Positions 1 through 32,134 of a stretch of DNA of 64,000 nt are shown here, piece by piece. Source of the DNA: Hamadaea tsunoensis DSM 44101. Lineage in GTDB: Bacteria; Actinomycetota; Actinomycetes; Mycobacteriales; Micromonosporaceae. The position numbers and the translations under genes were made by a program. Location: contig NZ_AUAX01000018.1 of the NCBI RefSeq assembly GCF_000428945.1, positions 62,001 through 126,000 of the forward strand, read 5' to 3'. The notes beneath the pieces are model-generated. The model searched no databases. It was not told the origin of the DNA and saw nothing but the letters and a program-made list of their open reading frames with translations. Position 1 is the stretch's first letter; each line of letters opens with the position of its first letter.

Positions 1-8221
<8,221 letters not shown>

Positions 8222-9095: not shown

Positions 9096-12000
9096 CGGAG
9101 CAGGAGCGGCTGCTGGAGTACCTCAAGCGGGCCACCGGCGATCTGCGCAAGGCCAAGCGCCAGCTGCAGGAGGCCGAGCAGCGGGCCACCGAGCCGATCG
9201 CGATCGTGGGCGCGGCCTGCCGCTACCCGGGTGGCGTGACGACCCCGCAGGAGCTGTGGGACCTCGTCGCCGCGGGGGGCGACGCCATCGGCCCGTTCCC
9301 CGCCGACCGGGGCTGGGACCTGCACCGCCTGTTCGGCCCCGACGACGACCCCGCCGCCACCTACGTCCGCGAGGCCGGCTTCCTGTCCGGCGCCGCCGCG
9401 TTCGACGCCGCCTTCTTCGGCATCAGCCCGCGTGAGGCGTTGCTGATGGACCCCCAGCAGCGGCTGCTCCTGGAGATCTCGTGGGAGGCGCTCGAACGCG
9501 CCCGGATCGTCCCGGCCACCCTCAAGGGCAGCCGCACCGGGGTGTTCGCCGGGGTCATGTACCACGACTACCCCGCGGGCAGCAGCGTCGGCAGCATCGT
9601 CTCCGGACGGGTCGCGTACGCGCTGGGGCTGGAGGGGCCGGCGGTCTCCGTCGACACCGCGTGCTCCTCGGCCCTGGTGGCGCTGCACTGGGCCGCCCAG
9701 GCACTGCGCCGCGGCGACTGCGGTCTGGCCCTGGTCGGCGGGGTCACCGTGATGTCCACACCGGACACGTTCGTCGACTTCAGCAAGGAGAAAGGCCTCG
9801 CCCCGGACGGCCGCTGCAAGTCCTACGCCGACGCCGCCGACGGGACGGTCTGGTCGGAGGGCGCCGGCGTCCTCGTCGTCGAGCGGCTGTCGGACGCCCA
9901 GCGCCTCGGCCATCCGATCCTCGCCGTCGTCCGCGGCTCGGCCGTCAACTCCGACGGGGCCAGCAGCGGCCTGACCGCCCCGAACGGGCCGTCGCAGCAG
10001 CGCGTCATCCGCCAGGCGCTCGCCGACGCCGGGCTGAACCCGGCCGACGTCGACACCGTGGAGGGCCACGGGACCGGGACCGTCCTCGGCGACCCGATCG
10101 AGGCGCAGGCGCTGCTGGCCGCGTACGGGCAGGACCGCGAGGCGCCGCTGTGGCTCGGCTCCGTCAAGTCGAACATGGGGCACACGCAGGCCGCCGCGGG
10201 CATCGCCGGGATTATCAAGATCATTGAAGCGCTGCGCCACGAGGAGCTGCCGCGTACGCTGCACGTCGACCGGCCCACGTCCGTCGTCGACTGGTCCGCC
10301 GGTGCGGTGGAGCTGCTCACCGAGGCGCGCCCCTGGAAGGCGAACGGGCGGCCGCGCCGGGCCGGGGTCAGCTCCTTCGGCATCAGCGGCACCAACGCGC
10401 ACGTCATCATCGAGGAGGCGCCCGCCGTCGAGCCGGTGCTGCCGCCGGGCCCGTTCGACCGCCCGCTGCCCTTCCTCGTCTCCGCGCGTACGCCCACCGC
10501 CCTGCGGGATCAGGCCGGCCGGCTGCGGGCGGGGCTCCCGGCGTACTCGCCGGAGGTCGCGGCCTCGCTGGCGACGACCCGCAGCCATTTCGAGCACCGG
10601 GCGGTCGTGCTCGGGGACCCGCGGGCGGGACTCGCCGCCCTGGCCGCCGGGGACGCGGTGCCGGGCGTGATCGTGGACTCGGCGACGCGGCCGGGCCGCA
10701 CGGCGTTCCTGTTCACCGGGCAGGGGTCGCAGCGGCTGGGCATGGGCCTTTCGCTCTCCGATCGGTTCCCGGTGTTCGCCGAAGCCCTGAACGAGGTCGT
10801 GGTCCGGTTCCCGGGTCTGCGGGAGGTGATGTGGGGCTCGTCGGCGGAGACCCTTGCGGCGACGGGTTGGGCGCAGCCGGCGTTGTTCGCGTTCGAGGTG
10901 GCGATGTTCCGCCTCGTTCAGTCGTTGGGCCTGAAGCCGGATGTCCTGATCGGACATTCGATCGGTGAGGTCGCGGCGGCCTACGTCGCCGGTGTCTGGT
11001 CGCTGGACGACGCGGTGCGGCTGGTGTCGGCGCGGGCGAGCTTGATGCAGGCGCTGCCGGCCGGCGGGGCGATGGTCTCCGTGGCCGCCACCGAGGCGGA
11101 AGTGCGGGCGGCGCTGAAGCCGGGTGTCGACATCGCGGCGGTGAACGGGCCGCACTCGGTGGTGATCTCCGGGGCCGAGAAGGCGGTGCTGGCCGTCGCC
11201 AAGCGCTTCCCCGCGTCGAAGCGGCTACGGGTGTCGCACGCGTTCCACTCGTCGCTGATGGACCCGATGCTGGCGGAGTTCCGGACGGTGGTGACCTCGC
11301 TGACCTTCAGCGCACCGGCGATCCCGCTCGCGACGTCGGGCGATGTGCTCGATCCCGAGTTCTGGGTGCAGCATGTACGCCAACCCGTCCTGTTCGCCCA
11401 GTCCGTCACTTCCTCGGGCGCCCGGCGGTTCATCGAGCTGGGCCCCGACGCCACGCTGGCCGGGCTGACGGCCGCCTGCGCCGACGGTCTGACGGTGGCG
11501 CTGTCGGCCCGCGACGGTGACGAGGCCGACGCGCTCACGACCGGGCTGGCCCGGCTGCACGCCGCCGGGACCGACGTCGACTGGGCCGCCTACTTCGGCG
11601 TACCCGCGTCGGCCGACCTACCTACGTACGCCTTCCAGCACGAACGCTTCTGGCTCGCCGACACCGCCGCGGGCGACGCGACCGCCGCCGGACTGGCCGC
11701 GACGAGCCATCCGCTGCTGCGGGCGGTCGTCGACGTCCCCGAACCCGAGATGATCGTCCTGACCGGACGCATCTCGACGGCGAGCCTGCCGTGGCTGGCC
11801 GAGCACGCCGTCGGCGGGCGTACCTGGCTGCCGGGCGCGGCCCTGGTCGAGATCGCGCGGGCGGCGGGTGCGGCCGCCGGCAGCCCGGTCGTGGCGGAGC
11901 TGACCCTGGCCGAACCGGTGGACCTCGGCGAGGCCGCGGCGGTCGCCGTACGCGTCACGGTCGGCCCGGCCGGCGTGGACGAACGCCGCCCGATCGGCAT

Positions 12001-15000
12001 CCACACGCGACCGGCCGACGCCGCAGCGGACTGGACCCGGCACGCGACGGGCTTCGTGACCGCCGAGCAAGCTTCCGATCCGCGGGACGCAGCTCTGGCC
12101 GCCTGGCCGCCGCCGGGCGACCCGGTCGACCTGACCGGCTTCTACGAGCGCCTGGCCGACGCCGGGTACGCGTACGGCCCGGTGTTCCAGGGTCTGCGCC
12201 GGGCCTGGCGGCAGGGCGACGAGATCCTGGCCGAGGTGGCGCTGCCCGCCGACGTGGACGTGACCGGCTACGGCGTGCACCCGGCCCTGCTGGACGCCGC
12301 CCTGCACGCCGCCGCCCTGCTGGACCTGGCGGGCGTGCCGTTCGCGTGGACGGACTTCGCGGGCGAGCGCCCGGCGGGATCGTCGGCCCGGGTCCGGGTG
12401 GTCCGCACGGGCGACAACACCGTCTCGGTGGACCTCGCCGACACCGCCGGTACGCCGGTCGCCGCCATCGGCACGCTCGCGCTGCGGCCGCCCACGGTCT
12501 CAAGTGGACGGTTGCGGTCGCTGCACCACCGGACCTGGGACCGGGTCGAGCTCACCGGCGCGACCGCCGCCGACGACGTCGAGATCCTGCGGGTCGAGCC
12601 GCCGACCGGGACCGACCTGCCGCACTCGGTACACCTCGCCACGCACTGGCTGCACGCGGAACTGACGTCCTGGCTGTCGGGGGAGACCGCCGCCCGCCTG
12701 GCGGTCGTCACACGCGACGCGGCAGCGGTGGGGCTCGACGAGGATGCCGCGATCGGCCTCGTGCACGCCGCCCTGACCGGCCTCGTCCGCAGCGCCCAGG
12801 CCGAGCACCCCGGCCGGCTGCTGCTGGTCGACGTCGACGGCTCCGCGGCGGCCGAGGCGAACCTTCCGTCGGCCCTCGGCCTGGCCGCACCCGAGATCGC
12901 CCTCCGCGGGGACTCCGCGTACGCGCCGCGGCTGGCGAAGTTCGCGGCGGAAGCCGTCGAGCCACCGCCCCTCGGCGGCACCGCCCTGATCACGGGCGGC
13001 ACCGGCGGGCTCGGTCGCGCGGTCGCCCGGCACCTCGTCGAGCGGCACGGCGTACGCCATCTCGTCCTGGTCAGCCGCCGGGGCGGGAATGCCGACGACC
13101 TTGCCGCCGAGCTGAGCACCGCCGAATCGGGCGCCTCCGTACGCGTCGTCGCCGGTGACGCCGCCGACCGGGCCGTGCTCGCCGACGCGCTGAGCGACCT
13201 GCCGTCGGCGTACCCGCTGACGATCGTCGTGCACGCGGCCGGTGTCCTCGACGACGCCGTCCTGACCGCGCTGACCCCGCGACGGTTCGACACCGTCCTG
13301 CGCCCGAAGGCCGACGCCGCCTGGCTGCTGCACGAGCTGACGGCCGGGCACGACCTGGCCGCGTTCGTGCTGTTCTCCTCCGCGTCGGCCGTCCTCGGCG
13401 CGCCGGGCCAGGCCAACTACGCCGCGGCCAACGCGTTCCTCGACGCGCTCGCCGTCCACCGCCGGGAACGGGGACTGCCCGGGCAGTCGCTCGCCTGGGG
13501 TCCGTGGGCGGGCGAAGGGATGGCCGCCGACCGCGGCTGGACCGGTTCCGGCGTCGGCGAACTCGACCCGGCCGAGGCGCTCGCCCTGTTCGACACGGCG
13601 CTGGGCGTACCGGCGGCCGACCTGGTGCCCGTCCGCCTGGAACCGGTGCGCGCCAAGCCCCGGCCCGCACGGGCGGTCCGGCGGCCGAAGGCGGACCTGC
13701 TCGACCTCGTCCGCTCGCACACCGCCCTCGCGCTCGGCCACACCGGTGCCGCCGCGGTCCCGGCCGACCGCCCGTTCACCGAGCTCGGCATCGACTCGCT
13801 GTCGGCGCTGGACCTGCGCAACCGGCTGGCCGAAGCGACCGGCGTACGCCTGCCGGCGACCCTGATCTTCGATCATCCGACGGCCGCCGCGGTGGCCGGA
13901 TTCCTGGCCGTCCAGGTCGGCGGCGAGACCGAGGCCGGCCCGGCGGTGACGGCGGTCGCCGACGAGGATCCGATCGTCATCGTCGGCCTCGGCTGCCGCT
14001 ATCCGGGCGACGTCGGGTCCGCCGAGGATCTGTGGCGGCTCGCCGTGTCCGGAGTGGACGCCGTGACGCCGTTCCCCGCCGACCGGGGCTGGGACGTCGA
14101 GGCCATCTACGACCCGGCCGGACCCGTCGAGGGCAAGACCTACGTCCGCGAGGGCGGCTTCCTGCGCGGGGCGGCCGACTTCGACGCCGCGTTCTTCCGC
14201 GTCAGCCCCCGCGAGGCGCTGGCGATGGACCCGCAGCAACGCGTACTGCTGGAGGTCGCCTGGGAGGCCCTCGAACACGCCCGGGTCGCCCCGACGTCGC
14301 TGCGCGGCTCGCGTACCGGGGTGTTCGCCGGGGTCATGTACCACGACTATCCGGGCAGCGCCGGGCTCGGCAGCCTCGTGTCCGGCCGCGTCGCGTACAC
14401 CCTGGGGCTGGAGGGACCGGCGGTCAGCGTGGACACGGCGTGCTCGTCGTCGCTGGTCGCGCTGCACTGGGCCGGGCAGGCGCTGCGCCGCGGCGAGTGC
14501 GACCTCGCGCTGGTCGGCGGGGTGACGGTGATGGCGACGCCGGAGACGTTCGTCGAGTTCAGCCGCGAGCGGGGGCTGGCGCCCGACGGGCGCTGCAAGT
14601 CGTTCGGCGACGGCGCGGACGGCACGGTCTGGTCCGAGGGCTGCGGCGTCCTCGTGGTCGAGCGGGCGTCCGACGCGCGCCGGCGGGGGCACGAGATCCT
14701 CGCGGTCGTCCGCTCCTCGGCCGTCAACTCCGACGGGGCGAGCGCGGGCATCACCGCGCCCAACGGTCCGGCGCAGCAGCGGGTCCTGCGGGACGCGCTG
14801 GCCGCGGCCGGGCTTCGGCCGTCCGAAGTGGACGCCATTGAAGGGCACGGGACCGGCACCGCGCTCGGCGACCCGATCGAGGCCCAGGCGCTGCTGGCGG
14901 TGTACGGCCAGGACCGCGAGACGCCGCTGCGGCTCGGTTCGATCAAGTCCAACCTCGGCCACGCCCAGGCGGCCGCCGGTGTCGCCGGGATCATCAAGAT

Positions 15001-18000
15001 GGTGATGGCGCTGCGGCACGGCGTCCTGCCGCCCACGCTGCACGCGGGCACCCCGTCGTCCCATGTGGACTGGACGGCGGGCGCGGTCGAGCTGCTCACC
15101 GCCGCGACCCCCTGGCCCGCCGCCGACCGGCCCCGCCGCGCCGGCGTCTCCGCCTTCGGCATCAGCGGCACCAACGCCCACGTCATCCTCGAAGAGCCGC
15201 CGGCTGCCGAGTCCGTGACGGGCGGGCAGCTTCCCGCGCCGTGGCTGCTGTCCGCGGCCACCGCCGAGGCACTGCCGGTGCAGGCCGCCCGCCTCCTCGC
15301 CGCGCTCGGCGACCAGGACGCGTTCGCCGTCGCGCGTACCCTCGCCACCGGCCGCGCCGCGTTGGACCACCGGGCCGCGATCGTCGCCCAGGACCGCGAC
15401 ACCCTGCTCGGCGGTCTGGCCGCGCTCGCCCGCGACGACTTCCACCCCGCTCTGGTACGCGCGGAGCCCGCCGAGGGCCGCACCGCGTTCCTGTTCACCG
15501 GCCAGGGCGCGCAGCGGCTCGGGATGGGCAAGGAGCTCTACGACACATTCCCCGCGTACGCGACCGCGTTCGACGAGGTGTGCGAGGCGTTCACCGGACT
15601 GCTGCCCGCCCCGCTGCGTTCCGTGGTCTGGGGGACCGACGCGGAGGAGCTGAACAAGACGGGCTGGGCGCAGCCGGCCCTGTTCGCCGCCGAGGTCGCG
15701 CTCTACGCACTCGTGCGCGCCTTCGGCGTGACGCCGGACTTCGTGGCCGGGCACTCGATCGGCGAACTGGCCGCCGCGTACGCCGCCGGGGTCCTGCCGC
15801 TCGCCGACGCCGCCCGGCTGGTGGCCGCCCGGGGCCGGCTCATGCAGGCGCTGCCCGCCGGGGGAGCCATGGTCGCGCTGGCCGCCGCCGAGGCGGAGGT
15901 ACACCCGCTCCTCGCAGCCGGCGTCGCCCTCGCGGCCGTCAACGGCCCCCGGTCGGTCGTCATCTCCGGCGACGCGCAGGCGGTCGCCCGCGTGGCGGCG
16001 GCCTTCGACAGTGCCGTGCCGCTGCGGGTCTCGCACGCGTTCCACTCCCACCTCATGGATCCGATGCTGGCGGAGTTCCGCGCGGTGGCGGCCACGATGG
16101 CGTACGCGGAGCCGTCGATCCCGCTCGTCTCCACGATGACCGGCGAGCCCGAGACCGACCGCCTCACCGATCCCGGCTACTGGGCCGAGCACGTGCGCCG
16201 GCCCGTCCGCTTCGCCGACGCCGTCACCGCTCTGCGCGAGCGCGGCGTGACCCGGTTCGTCGAGCTGGGACCGGACTCGACGCTCACCGCCCTCGCCGCC
16301 CGCAGCGCCGACGGGGCGGTCTGCGTCCCGCTGGCGCGCAAGCGGCAACCGGAGGCGTACGCGCTGCTCGGCGGGCTGGCCGAACTGCACACCCACGGCG
16401 GCTCCGTCGACTGGCCGGCCGTGTACGCCGACACCCGCGCGTACGCCGACCTGCCCGCGTACGCCTTCGAGCACAGCCGCTTCTGGCTGCGCACCGCGAC
16501 CGGCGTACCCGGTGCCGGGGCGGTACGCCATCCGCTGCTGACCGCCGCGACGCCCGTCCCCGCGACCGGGGGCCTGGTCCTGTCGGGCCGGTTGAGCGGC
16601 GACGCCGAACCGTGGCTGGCCGAACACGTCATCGGGGGCCGGGCGATCCTGCCCGGCACCGGTCTGGTGGAGCTGGCGTCCCGGGCCGGCGCGCAGGCAG
16701 GCTGCCCCCGGGTCGCCGAGCTGGTCCTGGACGCGCCCGTGGCCCTCGACACGAGCCTGGCGGTCACGGTCGGCCTCGGTGCGCCGGACGCGGACGGCCG
16801 CCGCGAAGTCACCATCCACACTCGACCGTCCACAGCGGACGCGGACACGGACTGGACCCTGCACGCGACCGGCGTCGTGGAGCCCGCCGGGACCACCGAG
16901 GTCGCAGCGGCCACGGAACCGACCCGCTGGCCCCCGGCGGGCGCGACCGAGGTCGACCTCGGCGACGCCTATGAGCGCCTGGCCGCCGCCGGGTACGCGT
17001 ACGGGCCGGTGTTCCAGGGCCTGCGCAAGGCCTGGCGATCCGGCGACGACCTGTACGCCGAGGTCGGCCTGCCGGACGGCGCCGAGCCGGGCGGCTACGG
17101 GGTGCACCCGGCGCTGCTCGACGCCGCCCTGCACGTCCAGCTGCTCGCCTCGCCCGCGGGCGGCCCGCCCCTGGTGCCGTTCGCGTGGAGCGGCGTCGCC
17201 GTGCACACCGAGTCCGCCGCGGCGCTGCGGGTCCGGCTCAGCCCGGCCGGGCCCGACGCGGTCAGCCTGCTGGCGACCGACGCGTTCGGCGTACCGGTGG
17301 TGTCGGTGGACCGGGTGGCCGCCCGGCCGCTGGCCGCCGCCCGCGCCGACGACCTGCTCTTCCGCGTCGGCTGGGAACCGGTGACGGAACCGGTCGCGGC
17401 AGCCGGGGACGTCGCCACGTTCGCCGTCCCCCCGGCGCGGGCCGACATCCCCGGGGCCGTGCACGCCGCGACCGCCGCCGTCCTGGCCGCGATCCAGGAA
17501 CACCTGCGTACGCCGGCCGGCGTACTCGTCTTCGTCACGACCGGCGGTGTGGCGGCCGCCGACGGCGATCCGGTCGACCCGGCGGCCGCGGCCGTCGGGA
17601 GCCTGGTACGCGCGGCCGCCGCCGAGCATCCCGGCCGGTTCGGACTGGCCGATGTGGACGATCCGGCCGGGTTCGTACCCGTGGACCTCCCCGAGACCGC
17701 CGTCCGAGCCGGCGTGATCCTGTTCCCGCGACTGCGCCGGGCCCCGCACGTGGAGCCCGGAGCCGGGCTGGGGGACGGTCCTGTCCTCATCACCGGCGGC
17801 ACCGGCGGCCTGGGCGCGGCCCTCGCCCGCCACCTCGCCGGGACCGGTACGCGCCGCCTCGTGCTGACCAGCCGCCAGGGCCCGGCCGCCCCGGGAGCCG
17901 ACGCCCTGCACGCCGACCTGACCGCGCTCGGTGCCGAGGTGACGATCGCGGCGTGCGACGTCGCCGACCGGACCGCCGTCGCGGCGCTGCTGGCGCGGAC

Positions 18001-19042
18001 CGGGCCGCTGGGCGCGGTCGTCCACGCGGCCGGGATCGCCGACACCGGGCTCGTCGGGGAGCTGACGGCGGGGCGGCTCGCGGCCGTGCTGCGCCCCAAG
18101 GTCGAGGGCGCCTGGCACCTGCACGAGCTGACCCGCGACCAGGATCTGACCGCGTTCGTGCTCCTGTCGTCGACGGCCGGGGTGTTCACCGGCGCCGGGC
18201 AGGCGGCGTACGCGGCCGCGAACGGGTTCCTCGACGCGCTGGCCCGCCACCGGCGCGCCGGGGGACTCCCGGGCACGGCGCTGGCCTTCGGCCCCTGGGA
18301 TCCCGCCGCCGGCGGCCTCACCCGTGAGCTGGACGAGACCGGGCTGCGCAGGCTCGCCCGGCTCGGCCTGCCGCCACTGTCCATCACGGACGGTCTGCGG
18401 GCGTTCGACGGCGGCGTCCGCCGGCCCGAACCCGACCTGGTGGCGGCCCGGCTCGACCTCGCCGCCGTACGCGCGCAGGGCGACGCCGCCCTGCCGATGC
18501 TGCGCGGTCTGGCCGGACGGCGTACCGAGGGGGCGACCGGAACCCTGCCGGCCCGGCTGGCCGCGCTGCCCGCCGAGCAGCGGGAGGACTTCGTCCTGCG
18601 GGTCGTCACCGAGCGGGTCGCCGGCGTACTCGGGCACGCGCCGGGCACCGCCATCGCGCCCGGGAAGGCCTTCGGCGACCTCGGCTTCGACTCCCTGGCG
18701 GCGGTGGAACTGCGCAACCAGCTCAGCACGCTGACCGGCCGCCCGCTGCCCGCGACGCTGGTCTTCGACCACCCGAGCGCGGCAGCCCTCGCCCGGCACC
18801 TGCTGGAACTGATCGCACCGGCCCCGGTGGACCCGGCCGTGGCCGTGCTCGCCGACCTGGACCGGATCGAGGCGGGCCTGGCCGGCCTCGACGCCGCCGA
18901 GGACGGGCGCGTCCGGGTGACCGCGCGGCTGGAAGCGTTGCTGCGCCGCGTACGCGAGCCCGCCGGCGACGCGCGGGCCCTCGACGGCGCCACCGACGAC
19001 GAGCTCTTCGACTTCCTCGACGAGGAATTGGGGCGGGCATGA
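9092..19042 (+). CDS. Type I PKS, two modules: (KS-AT-DH-KR-ACP) x2
   Basis: GTG at 9092 is chosen because it begins a typical N-terminal docking helix ([14 protein letters not shown]), has GAGGGGG upstream and overlaps the previous stop as GTGA. The protein is about 3316 residues. Module A: KS 34-445 (DTACSSA, EGHGTGT, KSNMGH), AT 537-850 (GHSIGE, HAFH, malonyl), DH 870-1137 ([15 protein letters not shown]), KR 1147-1525 (GVLDDA, B-type), ACP 1533-1608. Module B: KS 1625-2035, AT 2132-2465 (HAFH, malonyl), DH 2480-2740, KR 2752-3118, ACP 3157-3240. The second KR lacks LDD (GIADTG) and has GVF where A-type KRs have GVW, so its stereochemistry is unclear. The C-terminus ([12 protein letters not shown]) is a classic docking segment for the next enzyme. 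Each module should add a malonate-derived unit reduced to an alkene. The AT of module A is a near copy of the AT at 1-890. Confidence 0.96.
10726..11618 (+). repeat. Duplicated AT-coding segment (near copy of 1-893)
   Basis: The two stretches align without gaps at an offset of 10725. In the first 120 bases I count five differences. Similarity falls off just after the GTCGACTGG at 851/11576, close to the end of the AT domain. The left edge of the first copy is outside the window. The segment uses more A/T third positions than the flanking PKS DNA (for example ggcctttcgct). Both copies encode malonyl-type ATs. This looks like recent gene conversion or AT exchange between modules. Confidence 0.85.
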
Positions 19043-22000
19043 CCGACACCGAGACCCGGCTGCGCGACTACCTCAAGCGCACCGCCGCCGAGCTCCAGCA
19101 GGCGCGCCGCGACCTCGACGAGGTACGCGCGAAGGCCGCCGAGCCGATCGCCGTCGTCGGGATGGCGTGCCGCTATCCGGGCGGCGTGCGAACGCCTGCG
19201 GACCTGTGGTCGGTGCTGGCCGACGGCCGCGACGTCATCGGGGAGTTCCCCGCCGACCGGGGCTGGGACGTGGACGGCATCTACGATCCGCAGCCCCGGC
19301 CGGACAAGACCTACGTACGCCGCGGCGGCTTCCTCGACGACGCCGCCGGATTCGACGCCGACTTCTTCGGCATCAGCCCGAACGACGCCCGCCGCGCCGA
19401 CCCGCAGCAGCGCGTCCTGCTGGAGACGTGCTGGGAGGCCGTCGAGGGGGCCGGGATCGACCCGCTCGCGCTGCACGGCAGCACCACCGGCGTCTACGCG
19501 GGGCTCATGTACCACGACTACAACAACGGCAGCCCCGGCGGCAGCCTCGTCTCCGGCCAGGTCGCGTACAGCCTCGGGCTCGAAGGGCCGGCGCTGTCGG
19601 TGGACACCGCCTGCTCCTCCTCGCTCGTCGCGGTCCACCTGGCCGTGCAGGCGCTGCGCCGCGGGGAGGTCGGCCTGGCGCTCGCGGGCGGCGTCACGGT
19701 CATGGGCACGCCCGACATGTTCGTCGACTTCAGCCGCCAGCGGGGACTCGCGCCGGACGGCCTGTGCAAGGCGTACGCGGCGGGCGCCGACGGCACGGGC
19801 TGGGCGGAGGGCGTCGGAGTCCTCGTCCTGCAACGGCTCTCGGACGCCCGGCGGGACGGCCGGCGGATCCTCGCGCTCGTGCGCGGCAGCGCGGTCAACT
19901 CCGACGGCGCCTCCAACGGCATCACCGCCCCCAACGGCCCCTCCCAGGTACGCGTCATCGCCGCCGCCCTGGCCGACGCCGGTCTCGCCCCCGCCGACGT
20001 GGACGCCGTCGAGGGCCACGGCACCGGGACCGCCCTCGGCGACCCGATCGAGGCGCAGGCGCTGATCGCGGCGTACGGGCCCCGGCCGGAGGGCAGGCCG
20101 CTGTGGCTGGGCTCGGTGAAGTCGAACCTCTCGCATCCGCAGGCGGCCGCCGGGGTGGCCGGGATCATCAAGGTGATCCTCGCGCTGCGCCACGCGTACC
20201 TGCCGCGGACCCTGCACGTCGACGAGCCCTCGCCGCACATCGACTGGGCCGCCGGGACGGTGCGCCTGCTGACGGAGGGCCAGGCCTGGCCCGCCGGCCC
20301 GCGCCCGCGCCGGGCCGCCGTGTCCTCGTTCGGCATCAGCGGCACCAACGCCCACGTCCTCATCGAGGAGCCGCCCGCCGAGCCGGCCGCCGGCGAGCCC
20401 GCGATCGTCGAGAGTGGACCGTACGCGCTGCCGTTGTCGGCCAAGACCGAGACCGCCCTCGCCTCGGCGGCCCGGCGCCTCGCGGCGCACCTCGAACGGC
20501 ATCCGGAGCTGAGCCCGGCGGACGTGGCGTACACGCTGCGGACCCGGTCGGTCTTCGAGCACCGGGCGACGGTGACCGGCGACGGCCGGGCCGACCTCCT
20601 CGCCGCCCTCACCGCGCTGGCCGTCGGGGCGGACCATCCCGGAGTCCACATCGGAGACCTCGGCACCGGGAGCCCGGCGGGATGCCTGGTCGACCTGCCG
20701 GCCTACCCCTTCGAGCATCGGCGGTACTGGACCGATCCGACCCCGGGCGCCCCGGCGTCCGCGGCCGACTCCTGGCGCTACCGGGTGGAGTGGGCCGGAC
20801 TGGGCGGCTCTTCGCGTACGCCGGAAGGGGTGTGGCTCGTGCTGGCGCCGGAGGGCGACCCGGCGGCGGACGCCCTCGGACTGGAGAGCATCGTGCTCGA
20901 CGCGGCGGGCGACGAACGCGCGAAGCTGGCCGAGCGGGTCCGGGCGGCGCTCGCCGGGCGGGCCGTCGCGGGCGTCCTGGCCGCGGCCGCCGACGTGCCC
21001 GAGGCGCTGACCGCCGTCCAGGCCGTACGCGACGCGGACGTCACGGCGCCGTTCTGGTGTCTGACCCGTGGCGCGGTCGCGGTCGACCCGGCGGAGGCGG
21101 CCGATCCCGACGCGGGCGCGGTCTGGGGTCTGGGCCTGGTGGCCGGGCTCGACGCCGCCACCGGCTGGGGCGGCCTGGTCGACGTGGCGGGGGACTGGGA
21201 TCCGGCCGCGCTGCGGGCGGTGCTGGCGGAGGCGGCCGAGGACCAGGTGGCGATCCGCCCCTCGGGCCGGTACGCCCGCCGCCTCGTCCGCGCGCACCGG
21301 CTCGAACGGCTGCGCCACTGGCGTCCACAGGGGACGGTTCTCGTCACCGGCGGCACCGGAGCGCTGGGCGGGCACGTGACGCGGTGGCTGCTGGCGGCCG
21401 GCGCGCAGCGGGTCGTCCTCGCGAGCCGCCGCGGACCGCAGGCGCCGGGCGCAGCCGACTTCGACGAGCGCGTGAGCGTACGCGCCTGCGACATCGGCAG
21501 CCGGGCGGAGGTGGCGGCGCTGCTGGACGCGATCGGCCCGGTGACGGCGGTCGTCCACGCGGCCGGGGTGATGGCCGACGAGCCGCCGCTGCTCGACCTG
21601 ACCCCGCAGCAGTACGCCGCGGCGTCCCGGGCCAAGACGGCCGGCGCCGAGCACCTCGACGAACTGCTCGCCGACACCGATCTCGACGCGTTCATCCTGT
21701 TCTCCTCGGGCGCCTCCGCCTGGGGCGGTCAGGGCCGGCCCGCGTACGCGGCCGCGAACGCGTACCTGGACGCGCTCGCCCAGCGCCGCCGGGCCCAGGG
21801 CCGGCCGGTGACCTGCGTCGGCTGGGGCACCTGGGCGGGTGGCGGGCTCGCCGACGATCCGGACGCCGAGGCGTACCTGCGGCGGATCGGCGTGCGCGCG
21901 ATGGCTCCGGCCGCCGCGCTCACCGCCCTCCAGCAGGCGCTCGACTCCGGCGAGAGCCACGTCGTCGTGGCCGACGTCGACTGGGACCGGTTCGTGCCCG

Positions 22001-22605
22001 TGTACGCCCTCGCCCGGCCGCGGCCGCTCGTCGCCGGGCTGGCCGCCGCCCCGGTCGTCGCGGCGGCCCCGGAAGCCGCGCTGGAACTGCGGCTCCAAGG
22101 ACTCACGGCGGCCGAACGTTCCCGGGAGGTGCTGCGGCTTGTGCGTACCGAGGTCGCGCTGGTGCTCGGGCACGACGACCCGCGCGCCGTCGAACCGGCC
22201 CGCGCCTTCGCCGACCTGGGCTTCGACTCGGTGACCGCGGTGGACCTGTCCACCCGGCTCGGCCGCGCCACCGGCGTCGCGCTCCCGGCCACGGCGGTCT
22301 TCGACTACGCCAGCCCGCAGGCGCTCGCGGCCCACCTCGACGGCGAACTCGGCCGCGAACTCGGCGGCGCCGCCTCGGTGCTGACCGACCTCGACCGGCT
22401 GGAGGCGGGGCTGGCCGACCTCACGCCCGAGGAACTCGACCGGGCGAACGTCGCCGCGCGACTGCGGGCGCTGGCGGCCCGCCTCGAAAACGCGGGATCC
22501 CCTGTGGACGGTGCCGGCCTCGCGAGCCTGCTCGACGGCGCGAGTACGCAGGACGTCCTGGACCTGCTCGACAAGGAACTCTCGACGAGGGACGCAGATG
22601 GCTGA
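19039..22605 (+). CDS. Type I PKS, single AT-less module: KS-[no AT]-KR-ACP
   Basis: Starts at ATG 19039, overlapping the upstream stop as ATGA; 1188 residues. Domains: docking helix ([16 protein letters not shown]), KS 35-442 with intact Cys (DTACSSS), EGHGTGT and KSNLSH, then linker, KR about 578-1007, ACP about 1028-1103 (GFDSV) and docking tail. Between the KS and the post-AT segment [15 protein letters not shown] (about 553-567) there is no AT. The normal KS-AT linker (FEHRATV) runs after some 20-30 residues straight into the post-AT linker, so about 300 residues including GHSxG are missing with the frame kept. The KR has no LDD and has Trp eight residues before the catalytic Tyr ([11 protein letters not shown]), the A-type pattern. 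No DH is present, so the unit should keep a hydroxyl. The ACP must be loaded by another protein's AT, a discrete AT, or not at all. Confidence 0.94.
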
Positions 22606-25600
22606 CGACGAACGGCTCCTCGAATACCTCAAGCGGGCCACCATCGACCTGCACGAGACCCGGGCGCGCCTGCGCGAGGCGGAGGCCGCCGACCGGGAGC
22701 CCGTCGCGATCGTGGCGATGAGCTGCCGCTACCCCGGCGACGTGCGGACGCCCGGCGATCTGTGGCGGCTGGTGGCCGACGGGGTGGACGCCATCGGCGC
22801 GCCCCCGGCCGACCGCGGCTGGCCCGCCTCCGCCCACTGGAACGGCGGCTTCGTCACCGGGGCGGCCGACTTCGACGCGGGGCTGTTCGGCATCTCGCCG
22901 CGCGAGGCGCTCACCATGGACCCGCAGCAGCGCCTGGTCCTCGAACTCGCCTGGGAGGCGTTCGAGCGGGCCGGCCTGCCGCCGCGCTCGCTGCGGGAGG
23001 CGCCCGTCGGCGTCTTCGTCGGCAGCGGCGGGCAGGACTACTACGACGACCTCGTCCCCGCGGAGGTCGCCGGGGTCGTCGACGACTACCTCAGCACAGG
23101 CAACGTCGGCTCGGTCATCTCCGGGCGGATCGCGTACGCCTTCGGGCTGGAGGGCCCGGCCCTCACCGTGGACACCGCCTGCTCGTCGTCGCTCGTCGCG
23201 GTGCACCTGGCGAGCCAGGCCCTGCGGCGGCGCGAGTGCTCGATGGCCCTCGCCGGCGGTGTGATGGTCATGAGCACGCCCGCGCCGTTCCTCGCCTTCG
23301 ACCGCCAGGACGGCCTCGCCGGGGACGGCCGCTGCAAGTCCTTCGCCGACGGCGCCGACGGCACCGGCTGGTCGGAAGGGGCGGGCCTGCTCCTGCTGGA
23401 GCGGCTGAGCGACGCCGAGCGGCTCGGCCACCCGGTCCTCGCCGTGCTGCGCGGCTCGGCGGTCAACTCCGACGGCGCCTCCAACGGGCTGACCGCCCCC
23501 AACGGACCGTCGCAGCAGCGCGTCATCCGCCAGGCGCTGGCCGCCGCCGGGCTCACCCCGGCCGACATCGACGCGGTCGAGGGGCACGGCACCGGCACGG
23601 TCCTCGGCGACCCCATCGAGGCGCAGGCGCTGCTGTCCACCTTCGGCCCCGGCCGCGAGCGGCCGCTGTGGCTGGGCTCGGTGAAGTCCAACATCGGGCA
23701 CGCGCAGGCCGCCGCGGGCGTCAGTGGCATCATCAAGATCGTCGAGGCGCTGCGGCACGAGACCCTGCCGCGGACGCTGCACGCGGAGCAGCCCAGCACC
23801 CGGGTCGCGTGGGCTGGCGGACCGGTCCGGCTGCTGACCGAGGAGCAGCCCTGGCCGCGCGGCGGGACACCCCGCCGGGCCGGGGTCTCGTCGTTCGGCG
23901 TCAGCGGCACCAACGCCCACGTCGTCATCGAAGAGGCCCCCGCGCCCGCCGAGCCGTCCGCTGCCGAGCCGTCCGCCCCGGGCTGGCCCGCCGGTACGCC
24001 GGTGCCGTGGCCGCTGTCGGGGCACACCGCGGAAGCGCTGCGGGATCAGGCCCGCCGCCTGTCCGGAGTGGACGGCGACCCGGCGGACATCGGCTTCTCC
24101 CTGGCCACCGGACGGACCGCCCTGGCGTACCGGGCGATGGTCCTGGGCGGGGGCGACCCGGCGCTGGCCGCGCTCGCGACCGGCGCCGATGATCCCGCCC
24201 TGGTGACCGGCGAGGCGGCCGAGGGCCTGACCGCGGTGCTGTTCACCGGGCAGGGCGCGCAGCGCGTCGGCATGGGACGCGACCTGTACGCGGCGTTCCC
24301 GGTCTTCGCCGCGGCGCTCGACGAGGTGCTGGCCCGGTTCGACGACGACGTACGCGCCCGGATGTGGGACGGCGACCCGCAGATCCTGGCCCGGACCGGG
24401 TACGCCCAGCGGGCCCTCTTCGCGATCGAGGTGGCGCTGTTCCGGCTGCTGGAGTCGTGGGGGATCGTCCCGGACTACCTGCTCGGCCACTCCATCGGCG
24501 AGCTGGCCGCGGCGCACTGCGCGGGCGTGCTGTCGCTTGTGGACGCTTGTGCGCTCGTGACCGCACGGGCCAGACTGATGCAGGAGCTGCCGCCGGGCGG
24601 GGCGATGGTGGCCGTCGTCGCGACCGAGGAGCAGGTACGCGCGGCGCTGCGCGCCGGCGTGGACATCGCGGCGGTGAACGGGCCGCGGGCGGTGGTGATC
24701 TCCGGTGACGAGGACGCGGTGGCGCAGGTGGCCGCGGGGTTCGAGGTGACCCGCGCCCTGACCGTCTCGCACGCGTTCCACTCGCGGCGGATGGACCCGA
24801 TGCTGGCCGCCTTCCGCGCGGTGGCCGAGAGCCTGACCTATTCGGCGCCAACGATCCCGATCGTCACCGACGGGGACGTCACCTCGCCCGGCTACTGGGT
24901 GAGCCAGGTCCGCGACGCCGTCCCGTTCCTGGCGGGCGTCCGCCGCCTGGAAGCCGCCGGGGTGACCCGCTTCGTCGAGGCGGGCCCGGACGGGGTGCTC
25001 GTGGCCATGGCGCGGGCGTGCCTGACCGACCCGGCCAAGGCCGTGCTCACGCCGATGCTCACCAGGGACGGCGCCGAACCCGCCACCGCCGTGACCGCGC
25101 TGGGCCGGCTGTTCGTCGCGGGCGCCGACCCCGACTGGGCCTCGGTGTTCGCCACGGCCGGCGCCCGCCGCGTCGACCTGCCCACGTACGCCTTCCAGCA
25201 CCGCCGCTACTGGCTCGGGCCGCGCCGCCAGGACGGGGAACTGGCCGCGGCCGGTCTGAGCCCGGCCGGGCACCCCCTGCTCGGGGCGGCCATCACGCTC
25301 GCGGGCGACGGCAGCCTGGTCCTGAGCGGACATGTGAGCGCGGCGGCGCAGCCCTGGCTCGCCGACCACGTCGTCGGCGGGGCGGTGACGCTGCCCGGCA
25401 CGGTGCTGCTCGACCTCGCCCTGCGGGGCGCGCGGCTGGCCGGGTACGACCGGGTCGAGGAGCTGACGCTCGGCGAGCCGGTGCTCGTCCCGGCCGAGGG
25501 CGTCGGGCTGCAGGTGGTCGTCAGCGGGCCGGCCGTCGCCGTCCATGCCCGTCCGCTCGACGGCGACTGGGCCGTGCACGCCACCGGCGCCCTCGCCGCC

Positions 25601-28600
25601 GCGGGACCGGCGCCCGCCGACGACCTCACGTCCTGGCCGCCCGCCGGCGCCCGCGAACTGCCGACGGGCACCGTCTACACCGGACTCGCCGCGGCCGGGC
25701 TCGCGTACGGGGCGGCGTTCCAGGGGCTCGCGGCCGCCTGGCGGTCCGGCGACGAGATCTTCGCCGAGGTACGCGTACCGGCGCTGGACGGCTTCGCGCT
25801 GCACCCCGTCGCGCTCGACGCCGCGACCCACGCGCTCTGGCTCGCCGCCGACGCGGACGGCCAGGGCGGCGGCCGCATCCCGTTCGTCTGGTCGGGACTG
25901 CAGGTGCACGCGGCGGCCACCGGGGACGCGCGCTTCCGCTTCACGCCGACCGGACCGGAGAGCTACGCCGTCACGGTCGCCGATGCGACCGGCGCGCTCG
26001 TGGCCACAGTGGACTCTGTCGTCTTCCGGCCGGTCACCGCCGTGGCGCCGCCGCTCTACGAGGTGGACTGGCAAGCCGTCGAGCTGGCCCCGGTGAGCGG
26101 CGAGGCTGCCGCCGTCGACGGAGATGCGTCGTTCACGGTCTCCGGCGAGCGGTTCCGGCTCATGGTCGTCGCCGGCGGGGCCGACGCGGCCGGCGCGCAC
26201 GCCGCCGTCCACGCGGCACTGGCGGCCGCGCAGGAAGCCCTGGCCGCCGAGGAGCGCCTCGCGGTCGTCACGAGCTTCGCCGTCGCCCGCCCCGGCGAGC
26301 CGGTCACGCACCCGGCGGCCGCCGCCGTGTGGGGCCTGCTGCGCTCGGCCCAGGCCGAGAACCCCGGCCGCGTCCTGCTCGTCGACACCGACGAACCGGC
26401 CGCCGTCGCCGAACTGCTGCCCACCCTGGCCGCCACGGGCGAAGAGCAGCTGATGGTACGCGCCGGGCAGGCGTACCGGCCGCGCCTGCGGGTGCTCGTC
26501 GGGGACGCCGCGCCTATCGACCTCACCGGCACGGTGCTCGTGACGGGCGCCTCCGGCGCGCTCGGCGGTCTGGTCGCCCGGCACCTCGCCGCGCGCGGGG
26601 TCGCCGAGCTGGTCCTGGTCAGCCGCCGGGGAGCCGACGAACTGGCCGCCGAGCTGACCGGCGTAAGCGTCCGGTCGCTGCGCTGCGATCTCGCCGACCG
26701 GTCGGCGGTGGCGGCGATGCTGGCGCAGGCCGGTCCCGTGACGGCGGTCGTGCACGCGGCCGGCGTGGTCGACGACGGCCTGCTGACCTCGCTGACCCCC
26801 GATCGGGTGTCGGCCGTCCTGCGGTCCAAGGTGGACGCCGCCTGGCATCTGCACGAACTGATCGGCGAGTCGGCGGCACTGGTGCTGTTCTCGTCGGCCT
26901 CCGGCGTCCTCGGCGCCCCCGGCCAGGCCAACTACGCGGCGGCCAACACGTACCTCGACGCGCTCGCCGCGTACCGGTCGGGACTCGGCCGGCCCGGCGT
27001 CGCGATGGCCTGGGGCCTGTGGGCGGAAGGGCTCGGCACGACGAAGGAGGCCGCGCGCACGGCCGGCCGGGGCGGCCTGCTCCCGCTGCCGGCGGCCGAG
27101 GCGCTCCTGCGCTTCGACGCCGCGCTCTCCGCCGGAGTGCCAGTCGTCGTCCCGGCCGCCCTCGATCCCCGGGCGCGGGCCGAGGAGGTGCCGGCCCTGC
27201 TGGCCGGGCTCGTCCGGCGTACCCGGACCCGGACCGCCGCGGCCGCGCCGGCGCCGGTCGCCCCGGCGGGCCTGCTCGACCTGGTGCGTACGCACGCCGC
27301 CGCGGTCCTGGGCTACCCCTCGGCGGCCGACGTCGCCCCCGGTACGCGTTTCCAGCAGCTCGGCTTCGACTCGCTGACCGCGGTCGAGCTGCGCAACGGG
27401 CTGAGCGCGGCGACCGGGCTGAAACTGCCCGCGACCCTCGTCTTCGACTACCCGACCAGCCAGGCGCTGGCCGAGCACCTCCGCGCGGAGATGTCCGGAC
27501 AGGACACCACCGCGACGGTCCGGTCCTCGGCGTCCGGCACCGCGGATCCGATCGCGATCGTCGGCATGGCGTGCCGCCTGCCCGGTGGCGTACGCACGCC
27601 CGAGGATCTCTGGCGCGTGGTGGCCGACGGCGTCGACGCGGTGGGGGAGTTCCCCGCCGACCGGGGCTGGGATCTCGCGGCGCTCTACGACGAGCAGGGC
27701 GAGCGGCCCGGCACCACCTACGTACGCCACGGCGGCTTCCTCTACGACGCGGGCGACTTCGACCCGGCGTTCTTCGGGGTGTCGCCGAAGGAGGCCGCCG
27801 CCCTCGACCCGCAGCAGCGCCTGCTCCTCGAAGTCTCGTGGGAGGCGCTGGAGCGGGCCGCGATCGACCCCGCGTCGCTGTCGGGCAGCCTCACCGGGGT
27901 CTACGCCGGGGTCCAGTTCCACGACTACATCGGCAGCAACAGCACCGGCTCGATCGTGACCGGGCGCGTCGCGTACACGCTGGGGTTGCAGGGTCCGGCG
28001 GTGAGCGTGGACACCGCGTGCTCCTCGTCGCTGGTGGCGATGCACTGGGCGGCGCACGCGCTGCGGTCCGGCGAATGCGACCTGGCGCTGGCGGGCGGCG
28101 TCGCCGTGATGGCCACGCCCGAGACCTTCGTGGAGTTCTCCCGCCAGCGCGGCCTGGCCCCCGACGGGCGCTGCAAGCCGTTCTCCGCCGACGCCGACGG
28201 CACGGGCTGGTCGGAGGGCGCCGCGATGGTGGTGCTGGAGCGGCTGAGCGACGCGCGCCGCCTCGGCCACCCCGTCCTCGCCCTGGTCCGCGGCAGCGCA
28301 GTCAACTCCGACGGCGCGTCCAACGGCCTGACGGCGCCGAACGGGCCGGCCCAGCAGCGGGTGATCCGCCAGGCCCTCGCCTCGGCCGGGCTTCAGCCGT
28401 CCGATGTGGACGCCGTCGAGGCGCACGGCACCGGTACGCGGCTCGGCGACCCCATCGAGGCGCAGGCGCTGCTGGCCACCTACGGCCGGGACAGGGACCG
28501 GCCGCTGTGGCTGGGCTCGGTCAAGTCGAACATCGGCCACACCCAGGCGGCGGCGGGCGCGGCCGGGATCATCAAGATGGTCATGGCGATGCGCAACGGC

Positions 28601-31600
28601 GAACTGCCGCGTACGCTGCACGCCGACCGGCCCAGCGCCGAGGTCGACTGGACCGCCGGACAGGTCAGCCTGCTGCACGAGCCGGCGCCGTGGCGTACCA
28701 ACGGGCATCCGCGCCGGGCCGGGATCTCCTCGTTCGGTGTCAGCGGCACCAACGCCCACGTCCTGCTCGAAGAGCCGCCGGAGGCGAAACCCGAGACCCC
28801 CGACGCCCCCGCCGGCACGCTGCTGTGGCCGCTGTCGGCGCGTACCGAGGGCGCGTTGCGGGCCCGGGCCGAGCAGCTCCTGTCCTACCTGGACGAGAAC
28901 CCGGACGTGGATCCGGCCACCGTCGGGCGGGCGCTGGCGACGACGCGTACGCCGTTCGAGCACCGCGCCGTCCTCGCCGGTACGCGTCGCGCCGACTTCC
29001 TGCGCGGCCTCATGGCGGTGGCCGACGGCGAACCGGCACCCGGGGTCGTCACCGGCACCGATCGGGGCGGCCTGCTCGCGGCGCTCTTCGACGACGGGCC
29101 CGACGAGGAGGCGCTGCGCCGCCTGGCCGCGGGGGGCGTACGCCCCGACGTCGTGGCCACCTCGGCCGACGAGCTGACCGGCAAGGGCATCTCCCGGATC
29201 GTCCACTTCGGAGAGTCGGCCGTCGGCGTCGAAGGTGCCGAGATCATCGGCGGCCGGGACGCGGACGTCATCGCCCGCCTGTACGCGACCGGAACCGCCG
29301 TCGACTGGACGGCCCTGTACGGCACGGCCCCGCGGCAGCCGGTGGACCTGCCGACCTACCCCTTCGAACGGTCCCGCTACTGGGTGTCGAGCGCGCTGTC
29401 GGCGAACCCGGCCACGGCGGGCCACCCGCTGACCGGCCGGGCCGCGCCGCTCGCCGACGGCCGGGGCGTGGTCTACACGCGGCGGGTCGCCGTCGACACC
29501 CACCCGTGGCTGGCCGACCACCGGCTCGCCGGGTTCGTCGTGCTGCCCGGCGCCGGCCTCGTCGAGATGGCCGCGCAGGCGGGCGAGGATCTCGGCGTAC
29601 CGCGGATCGCCGAGCTGACCGTCGAGGCGCCGGTCGTCGTTCCGGAGGGCAGCGTACAGCTGCAGATGTTCGTCGAACCGGCGGACGACGAGGGCGGCCG
29701 CGCCTTCGCCGTCCACGCCGCAGCCGACGTCGACGGCCCCTGGCGCCGCCACGCCTCCGGCCGCCTGACGGCCGGTACCCCCGCCCCCGCGCAGACCACC
29801 GGCGCCTGGCCGCCGCCCGGAGCCCAGCCGATCGCGCTGGACGAGCACTACGCGCGCCTGGCGGCAGGCGGCCTGGAGTACGGTCCGGCGTTCCAGGGAC
29901 TGCGGACCGCGTGGCGGTCCGGCGCGGAGGTCCACGCGGAGGTACGCGCGGACGCCGTGCTCGTCGACGCCGAGCCCTACGGCCTGCACCCGGCCGTCCT
30001 GGACGCCGCCCTGCACACGATCGCGCTGGCCGATCCCGACTCCGAACCCGTGCTGCCGTTCGCCTGGGAGGGCGTGCAGGTGTACGCCGCCGGCGCCGCC
30101 GAACTGCGGGTGAGCGTACGCCCGGCGGGCACCGGCGCGGTCTCGCTGACGCTGGCCGATACGGCCGGGAACCTGGTGGCGTCCGTCGACGAGCTGCTGC
30201 TCCGGCCGATGGCGGCGGCGGCGTTCGCCGAGCCCGCCACGGTCGCCGACGGCCCCGCCGACGCGCTGCTGCGCCTGCGGTGGCAGCCGGCCGCCGAGTC
30301 CGGGGCCGCCGCGGCGGGGGACCGGTGGGCGGTGCTCGGCCCGGACCGCTTCGGGCTCGCCGACACCCTCGGCGTCCGCCTGCTGTCCGATGTAGACGAA
30401 GCCGCCGGTGTGGACGTCGTCGTCCTGGCGTGCGGCGGCGAACCCGGCGACCAGGCCGCGGCCGCGCGTACGGAGACCGCCCGGGTGCTGCAGGCGTTGC
30501 AGGCCTGGCTGGCCGACGACGGCTTCGCCGCGGGCCGGCTCGTCGTCGTCACCAGCGGCGCCACGACCACCGACGCGGCCGCAACCCCCGGGCCCGATCT
30601 CGCGGGTGCCGCGGTCGCGGGGCTCGTCCGGTCCGCCCAGGCCGAGAACCCCGAGCGGATCCTCCTCGTCGACCTCGGTACGGCGGCGGACGCGCAGCAC
30701 CTGCCCGCCGCGGTCGCGACCGGCGAGCCGCACGTGTCCGTCCGGAATGGAGCGTTGCTGGCCCCCCGGCTCGTCCCGGCCACCCCGGCCGGCGAAGGGA
30801 CGGGCTGGGCGGGCGACGGTCCGGTGCTCATCACCGGCGGCACCGGCGCCCTGGCCGCCGCGCTCGCCCGCCACCTCGTGGCCCGGCACGGCGTACGCCG
30901 TCTGGTGCTGGCGGGCCGGCGGGGCGGGGACGCGCCGGGCGCCGCGGAACTGCGGGCGGACCTGGAACGCCAGGGCGCGACGGTGACCCTGGCCGCCTGC
31001 GACGTCGCCGACCGCGAGCAGCTGGCCGCCCTCCTTTCCGGCATCGACCGGCCGCTGTCCGCCGTGGCGCATCTCGCGGGCGTCCTCGACGACGCGACCG
31101 TGGGCTCGCTGACGCCCGAGCGGGTGGCGGCGATCCTGCGGCCGAAGGCGGACGCCGCCTGGCACCTGCACGAGCTGATCGGCGAGAACGTCCCGCTGGT
31201 CCTGTTCTCCTCGGCGGCCGGCGTGCTCGGCGCACCCGGCCAGGGCGGGTACGCCGCGGCCAACGCCTTCCTCGACGCGCTCGCCGGGTACCGGCGGGCC
31301 GCGGGATCGCCCGCCGTCTCGCTGGCCTGGGGGCTGTGGGAGTCCGACGGCAGCGGCGGCATGGCGGCCGGGCTGGCCGAGGCGGACACCCGGCGGATGG
31401 CCGCGACCGGCATCGGCGCCCTGTCGGCGAGCGGCGGCCTCGCCCTTCTCGACAGGGCGATGTCCACAAGCGACACTGTGCTCGTGCCCCTACGGCTCGA
31501 CACCGCGGCCCTCGCCCGGGTCGCCGACGAGATCCCGCCGATGCTGCGCGGCGTACTCCCGGAAAGGAAGGCGGCGCGGCGCCGGGCGGAGGCGACCGGC

Positions 31601-32134
31601 TCGGCCGACGCGGCGGCGAGCGCCCAGGCCCGGCTGTCGGCACTGCCCCCGGCGCAGCGCGACGCGGCGGCGCTGGACCTGGTACGCGAGCACGCGGCGG
31701 CGCTCCTCGGCCTGCCCGGGCCGGACGCGGTCGGACCGGACCGGGCGTTCAGCGCGCTGGGCTTCGACTCGCTGTCGGCGGTGGGCCTGCGCAACAAGCT
31801 GATGCTCGTGACCGGCCTGAAGCTGCCCGCGAGCCTGGTCTTCGACTATCCGAACCCCCGGGCGCTCGCCGAGCACCTGAGCGCCGAACTCGGGCCGGCG
31901 CCCGCCGAGCAGCAGCCCGGCGGACTGTCCGAGGAGCAGGTACGCGCGGCGCTGGCGGCGATCCCGCTCACGCGCCTGCGGGAGGCGGGCCTGCTCGACA
32001 ACCTCCTCGAACTGGCCGGGATCGCGCTGGCGCGCGACGACGGCGGTGCGGACGGCCGGGAGGCGTCCATCGACGAGATGAACATCGACGAAATGATCAA
32101 CATGGCCATTCGAGGAAGTGAGACGGACCTATGA
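22598..32134 (+). CDS. Type I PKS, two modules: KS-AT-DH-KR-ACP and KS-[AT remnant]-DH-KR-ACP
   Basis: ATG 22598 lies 8 bp inside the previous gene with GAGGG upstream and begins a docking helix ([13 protein letters not shown]); 3178 residues. Module A: KS 34-448, AT 545-875 (GHSIGE, HAFH, malonyl), DH 886-1147 ([10 protein letters not shown]), KR 1155-1535 (GVVDDG, B-type), ACP 1558-1631. Module B: KS 1648-2057 (intact Cys and His), AT remnant 2145-2245, DH 2268-2540 ([15 protein letters not shown]), KR 2560-2982 (GVLDDA), ACP 3025-3098. The remnant lacks the GQGxQ and GHSxG core and keeps only the tail ([22 protein letters not shown]). The second KR reads GGTGALA, with the last Gly of the cofactor loop changed to Ala. 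The C-terminus ([16 protein letters not shown], then [13 protein letters not shown]) is a different docking class from those of the two preceding PKSs, so its partner is not one of the enzymes starting in this window. Confidence 0.95.

Follow-up and report, generated by a model that had tools for sequence, protein, structure and literature searches.

Acyltransferase-less modules in a cis-acyltransferase macrolactam synthase of Hamadaea tsunoensis may still elongate with malonyl supplied in trans

How is the acyl carrier protein (ACP) of a polyketide synthase (PKS) module charged if the module has lost its acyltransferase (AT) domain while the assembly line around it is of the cis-AT type? This question is raised by a PKS cluster of Hamadaea tsunoensis DSM 44101, of which we analysed a stretch of 64,000 nucleotides (contig NZ_AUAX01000018.1, here C16, positions 62001-126000), hereafter the window. 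Coordinates without a prefix are those of the window, where the genes and domains given below all lie on the plus strand, and labels such as G307, G316 and G070 denote genomes. An original prediction, made from the letters of the window, had described a single AT-less module. That module (module 8) is real, but the cluster contains two more: its PKS genes carry 12 ketosynthase (KS) and nine AT domains by Pfam and a genome-wide PF00698 search, and AT is lacking in modules 5 (upstream of the window, C16:51255-55523), 8 and 10 (inside the window), that is, in 3 of 12 modules. We estimate a probability of about 60% that these three modules still elongate and that their ACPs are charged in trans with malonyl. 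The numbering follows the order that we infer from docking-like termini compared by eye, with the seven genes acting as A (loading, modules 1-3), B (4), C (5), E (6 and 7), F (8), G (9 and 10) and D (11, 12 and the thioesterase, TE).

The loss is most clearly seen in module 8, which has a gene of its own (19039..22605) encoding a stand-alone single-module protein of 1188 amino acids (aa). In this protein, Pfam recognizes the KS (residues 35-394), the KS extension (397-510), the KS-AT linker (463-528), a ketoreductase (KR, 765-933) and the ACP (1034-1100), but no match to Acyl_transf_1 was obtained at E 0.001. The distance between the KS end and the post-AT motif is 109 aa, compared with 401-441 aa in the nine modules that carry an AT. 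The KS-AT linker domain (20425..20622; CurL-like/RhiE-like in Pfam) is retained, and it is followed in the alignment by a 19-residue junction where the AT domain would be (20629..20685) and then by a post-AT linker of 15 residues (20686..20730). The earlier description of a cleanly missing AT, with one linker passing into the other within about 25 residues, thus holds, the residues in between being these 19. The KS Cys/His/Lys/His and the Ser of the ACP (22138..22338, LGFDSV) are all present, which confirms that the KS Cys/His and the ACP motif are intact, and the KR Lys/Ser/Tyr/Asn are present as well in a KR (21331..21837) that is A-type, with Trp 8 residues before the catalytic Tyr. The reading frame is open and its third-position GC is high across the junction. 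When the KS-linker part was modelled with AlphaFold2 from an alignment of 17 sequences, the mean predicted local distance difference test score (pLDDT) was 84; the linker domain, with ten-residue means of 66-93, is predicted to be folded, and residues 512-525, which overlap the junction, fell below 50, as would be expected for a flexible tether replacing the AT. The closest structural matches of the model were KS-AT parts of cis-AT lines.

The two other losses differ in form from this clean cut. In module 5 (124 aa between the KS end and the post-AT motif), the linker remains along with a short piece of the post-AT region. Module 10 (27545..32134), which follows the AT-bearing module 9 in a shared gene (22598..32134), has the order KS, linker, AT remnant, dehydratase (DH), KR and ACP, and its other tested catalytic residues are intact. 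Its corresponding span of 192 aa includes the linker and a collapsed remnant (28772..29347) with scattered pieces alignable to AT, in which the active-site motifs GQGxQ and GHSxG are gone, and the remnant resembles the product of more than one deletion. Since the genome is a draft (9.48 Mb in 68 contigs) and PKS repeats are hard to assemble, repeat collapse could in principle have dropped the ATs, and the published mte cluster indeed missed PKS genes until long-read re-sequencing (PMC10662134). Such an error is highly improbable here. The three junctions are in frame and each has a different length, no near-identical copy of the junction occurs in 140 kb of C16 (the best others are KS ends, at most 92% identical over 79 bp), no orphan Pfam AT match lies on another contig of the genome, and like losses were found in single-contig stretches free of ambiguous bases (N) in G307 and G316. 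Only slightly less improbable is that a silent cluster is decaying and its ATs are simply being lost. The number of lost ATs and the state of the module 10 remnant would fit such decay, but each of the seven PKS genes has an open frame and a high third-position GC, and no other tested catalytic residue has been lost in the 12 modules, save that module 12 has no KR, a lack shared by terminal modules of related lines.

Are these modules, then, members of a trans-AT system or cis-AT modules that have lost a domain? Compared with known PKS chains, the module 8 KS reaches about 640 bits with its closest cis-AT matches (DEBS, the 6-deoxyerythronolide B synthase, Rif and Lsd14), whereas its top trans-AT match, the KS of PksL, gives 352 bits; one cis-AT chain, PikA1, is nearly as low at 359. 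In a tree built without any trans-AT KS, it groups with the cis-AT KSs of related lines. By its KR, module 8 clusters with DH-less modules of G307, G070, G036 and G010 (support 0.96). The A-type Trp occurs in 8 of 8 DH-less modules tested, and the AT is kept in all seven of those outside the cluster studied here; the DH-less module of Amycolatopsis rubida also keeps its AT. A single A-type KR has been tied to the retained hydroxyl in macrotermycin and ciromicin (PMC10662134). Because the counterpart hydroxyl-forming module bears an AT in eight related lines, the reading that module 8 was an ordinary cis-AT module and lost its AT secondarily is supported, as had been proposed from the cis-AT character of its KS. 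The finding named beforehand as a refutation, a homologue whose gene includes the AT, was made, yet it speaks for secondary loss. As to the marks of the two classes, AT-less extension modules are present (3 of 12) as in trans-AT lines, but there is neither a KS of the trans-AT clade nor a dedicated discrete malonyl-CoA AT in the cluster; the cis-type KS and the KS-AT linker domain are present as in cis-AT lines, but modules 5, 8 and 10 break the rule of an AT in every extension module.

The genes upstream of the window indicate what kind of line this is. They encode a VinJ-like hydrolase, a VinK-type acyltransferase, two adenylation enzymes, a pyridoxal phosphate (PLP)-dependent decarboxylase, a methylaspartate mutase E chain and a P450-like protein, the last labelled so from reading the sequence. 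Pfam supports the set with VinK_C (6.8e-31), Met_asp_mut_E (1.5e-79), Orn_Arg_deC domains, two AMP-binding enzymes and an alpha/beta hydrolase, while nothing in Pfam matched the presumed small subunit of the mutase at 1e-8. The VinK-type protein (C16:22067-22999) matches PDB 5czc, which we take to be VinK, at E 1.8e-128. A minus-strand match near C16:23335 (E 2.5e-5) is a weak candidate for the stand-alone starter ACP of the VinL type. Judged by these genes, the cluster is a vicenistatin-type macrolactam line. Its closest known relatives are the vicenistatin-type PKSs (with VinK, VinJ, VinN/VinM, glutamate mutase and decarboxylase) and the macrotermycin and ciromicin lines of Amycolatopsis; they have the same starter cassette, only one hydroxyl-forming module without DH, and a final, TE-bearing module that has no KR.

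The loss of ATs is not confined to Hamadaea. VinK-type genes occur in 38 of 354 genomes of the family, and 18 stretches from 17 of these 38, several holding partial lines, were scanned with profile hidden Markov models that we made from sequences of the present cluster. Among their 173 complete modules, nine lacked an AT and three had a short AT, all in C16, G307 and G316. C16 accounts for 3 of 12 modules, G307 for 5 of 11 (modules 3, 5, 6, 8 and 10), and G316 for one lacking (module 6) and three short or deleted ATs (modules 2, 3 and 8) among 10 complete modules, or 11 if module 4, which is split by a frame break, is counted. The 80 named loci, taken with up to 10 kb on each side, contained 55 complete modules, of which one was AT-less (Frankia torreyi CpI1); this Frankia module, in a VinK-linked line, has the order KS, linker, DH and ACP as scanned. 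Which modules have lost the AT varies from line to line. G307 and G316 share an 11-module architecture, with KSs that match position by position in 8 of 11 cases (module 4 narrowly). By KS, the AT-less module 10 of C16 pairs with the AT-bearing module 9 of G307, and the AT-bearing modules 9 and 11 of C16 pair with the AT-less modules 8 and 10 of G307. In the tree of 38 VinK sequences, C16 and Frankia form one clade (0.98), G307 stands by G147 (0.93) and G316 by G070 (0.91), and none of the 11 modules of G070 has a missing or short AT; we therefore read the losses as separate. Within a line, the broken state may also spread. Among the AT-less G307 modules 3, 5 and 6, pairwise KS identity is 80-89%, which looks as though the loss of the AT had been copied within that line. 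Six modules of the G316 line (G316:C1:1482117-1563237) carry near-identical AT copies: the full-length ones of modules 4, 5 and 7 show 99.9% DNA identity, and the three short ones are a single internally deleted copy that keeps GQGSQ and GHSVG and has lost the malonyl Arg and the catalytic His, which fits gene conversion spreading a broken domain.

A second line of the Hamadaea genome, of the PKS-NRPS kind (C34:29461-59088) and flanked by nonribosomal peptide synthetase (NRPS) genes, has five KSs and a single AT, located in a loading module of the KSQ type (Gln for Cys), and its four extension modules have neither linker nor AT. A KS running straight into a DH was found, among the matches listed from 354 genomes (best 4 candidates each), only in G307, G316 and this C34 line. 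Other apparent cases did not stand. Of the matches that seemed to cross the junction in other genomes, the 29 loci retrieved besides that of the window all proved to have an AT match, and an AT-less module of G240 (Micromonospora sp. ATCC 39149) was dropped, its stretch holding 15,579 N and giving one module. The single G307 contig seems to carry one cluster region at both of its ends (C1:6095-15813 and C1:6624847-6634565), where the AT matches are identical and shifted by a constant amount; this is probably a circular overlap left uncut.

Whether the AT-less modules still add a unit is the central point, and the main competing explanation is that they are idle, with the growing chain passed through their KS and ACP. 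The product would then be smaller, by our arithmetic a 22-membered instead of a 28-membered ring if all other modules act. Passage of this kind by ACP-to-ACP transfer has been described in an engineered line (PMC6718629), and a natural parallel exists in A. rubida. Its cluster has been described as almost the same as that for macrotermycin, and modules 9 and 10 were proposed to be non-functional (PMC10662134). In its last PKS gene (G355:C24:299501-306931), the first module, here taken as module 9, is without a KR and its AT lacks Ser, Arg and His, but the KS, DH and ACP residues are kept; the second has no KR either, and its KS His is changed to Ser. The odd modules of A. rubida are thus these two, one without AT function and KR and the other without KR and a KS residue, whereas in the present cluster three internal modules have lost the AT alone. 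The AT-less or AT-deleted modules of C16 (three), G307 (five) and G316 (one and three) retain every catalytic residue tested in KS, DH, KR and ACP. In C16 and G307, the mean KS identity to AT-bearing modules is 65-69% for AT-less modules, compared with 62-70% for AT-bearing ones, and the domains are mostly in range. The terminal modules of G307 and G316 resemble those of A. rubida: their KS His is changed to Phe, they have no KR, and their AT lacks the malonyl Arg, which gives them a vestigial look. In the residues they retain, the AT-less modules of the three lines are unlike both these terminal modules and those of A. rubida. Moreover, module 8 corresponds to the conserved hydroxyl unit, and skipping would require 5 of 11 G307 modules to be passed over while positions 5 and 10 of G316 keep a full AT. 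Because the lost ATs differ, skipping would lead to quite different products from the matched lines G307 and G316; the different losses in matched lines argue for elongation with loading from outside, though they do not prove it. Skipping accordingly appears doubtful to us, but it keeps real weight.

Several observations count against continued elongation with outside loading and are reflected in our estimate. As the A. rubida case indicates, an AT-dead module in a macrotermycin-type line can be idle, although that module also lacks KR. Intact KS and ACP residues would be needed equally if the chain were merely passed through. One DH of an AT-less module (G307 6678674) has the lowest conservation in its set, at 40.0% compared with 42.0-48.0% in AT-bearing modules. 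The position-by-position match of G307 and G316 is weaker by other domains, with the best match on the diagonal in 5 of 10 cases for KR and 3 of 10 for DH. The module 8 KS lies outside the group of KSs from DH-less modules and near first-module KSs (0.85), so that the equivalence of module 8 to those modules rests on its KR, domain make-up and gene context. Finally, the cis AT-ACP pairs of DEBS are at least 10-fold selective for their own partner (PMC6164871), which tells against one source of malonyl considered below.

The explanation that we favour, elongation with malonyl supplied in trans, runs as follows. Modules 5, 8 and 10 would be ordinary cis-AT modules that have lost the AT domain and kept elongation. 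Malonyl would reach ACP5, ACP8 and ACP10 in trans from an acyltransferase not encoded for that purpose by the cluster. Such an outside supply would make single cis-ATs redundant, and they could then erode one by one, a different set in each line.

Which enzyme could provide the malonyl? The question of how the ACP is charged had been posed by the original prediction and proved a fair one. Its statement that no discrete AT gene is present needs correction for the cluster as a whole: a discrete AT-like gene does exist outside the window, the VinK-type gene described above, but it encodes a starter transferase and not a malonyl loader. It is the sole discrete AT-like gene of the cluster, in which the whole-genome PF00698 search found no discrete malonyl-type AT. 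The Arg in a defined column of AT sequences binds the malonyl carboxylate. In this column, all four VinK-like proteins examined have Leu, while FabD and two aligned ATs of the cluster have Arg; with the malonyl Arg missing, the VinK-like enzyme was ruled out as the loader. The discrete AT-like proteins found in the genome are FabD, encoded beside a KASIII gene, the VinK homologue, and one fused AT-ACP in an unrelated locus on contig C7. The AT-ACP, which lies with KASIII, KS and an LnmK-like gene, was rejected, though it is possible for this genome; against G307, G240 and the Frankia genome it shows 26-34% identity over the AT part, the level of PKS ATs, and 36-46% only over short ACP stretches. 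The C7 locus itself (L081:8271-13508), in which the LnmK-like gene stands by KASIII, KS and the fused AT-ACP, may have a role in acyl loading or decarboxylation. In G307, the only short-frame Pfam AT match besides the VinK homologue is FabD-like, and one short-frame match is listed for G316.

Foremost among the candidates is FabD, the housekeeping malonyl-CoA:ACP transacylase, to which we tentatively assign the larger part of the probability given to charging in trans. Outside loading of this kind has precedents: the malonyl-CoA:ACP transacylase of Streptomyces coelicolor rescues AT-null DEBS module 6 (PMC6164871), a trans-AT rescues the AT-null modules 6 and 9 of the macrolactam synthase for auroramycin (PMC6943886), and FabD serves the AT-less barnesin PKS (PMC13096860). 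The smaller part falls to borrowing from adjacent modules whose AT is intact; AT7 or AT9 could serve module 8, for instance, and the modules would then elongate without involvement of FabD. C16, G307 and G316 each retain several intact malonyl-type ATs, one aureothin AT has been described as loading successive modules within one protein (PMC9899208), and four of the five AT-less G307 modules share a polypeptide with an AT-bearing module. However, modules 5 and 8 of Hamadaea and module 6 of both G307 and G316 are stand-alone proteins, so that borrowed loading must cross proteins there, and the selectivity of the DEBS ATs is unfavourable to it. We consider this source unlikely, on a level with skipping.

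Compared with known systems, the cluster has several features of its own. The kirromycin PKS, a mixed trans-/cis-AT line, combines AT-less and AT-bearing modules as is the case here, but it has a dedicated discrete AT, KirCII, and the present cluster has no discrete malonyl-type AT. KirCI is reportedly a further dedicated discrete AT of kirromycin. The barnesin PKS BrnF, an AT-less module served by FabD of primary metabolism, is a single trans-type NRPS-PKS module, whereas here a cis-AT line shows scattered losses. The AT-null DEBS module 6 with a transacylase and the AT-null auroramycin modules with the Dszs AT demonstrate that cis-type modules can be charged in trans (PMC6164871, PMC6943886), but these were man-made, and the loss described here is natural and recurrent. 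In pepstatin-type clusters, pepC carries a truncated AT and a sister subtype is AT-less, so that both versions of the PKS occur in related clusters (PMC12081711); there, a PKS gene lies beside NRPS genes, and here an assembly line shows a mosaic of losses position by position. Apart from the modules proposed to be non-functional in PMC10662134, the literature covered, which included few subscription papers, contained no account of AT-less internal modules in VinK-type lines. The unusual features here are that the KSs are of the cis type, that no dedicated trans-AT was found, and that the losses form a mosaic between matched lines. It is conceivable, and we put it forward with less than even confidence, that cis-AT lines are turning into trans-AT lines: if FabD or another non-dedicated malonyl transacylase charges the AT-less macrolactam modules, single ATs could have been lost, or gene-converted to a deleted copy, independently at different positions in at least four lines (Hamadaea, G307, G316 and Frankia), with none kept in the C34 extension modules. 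Trans-AT synthases are seen as a separate class, with KSs distinct from those of cis-AT lines, and here standard cis-AT KSs belong to lines in which the share of modules without a working AT ranges from a quarter to almost a half. If these modules work, they would be natural evidence that a cis-AT line tolerates outside loading, and they could serve as a test bed for cis-to-trans conversion and as a source of natural AT-free modules for engineering. In that case, product predictions that omit AT-less modules would miscount the units in such clusters.

The remaining PKS genes of the window retain their ATs. One gene (9092..19042) encodes modules 6 and 7, both AT-bearing, and the 3' part of another (2..8221), which starts upstream of the window, encodes modules 11 and 12 and the terminal thioesterase. 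Between them lies a gene for a short EryCIII-like glycosyltransferase of 290 aa (8223..9095), possibly a truncated helper. Module 12 (3464-8221), which has no KR, shows the unusual AT motifs GHSTG and QAVH, with the tested residues intact.
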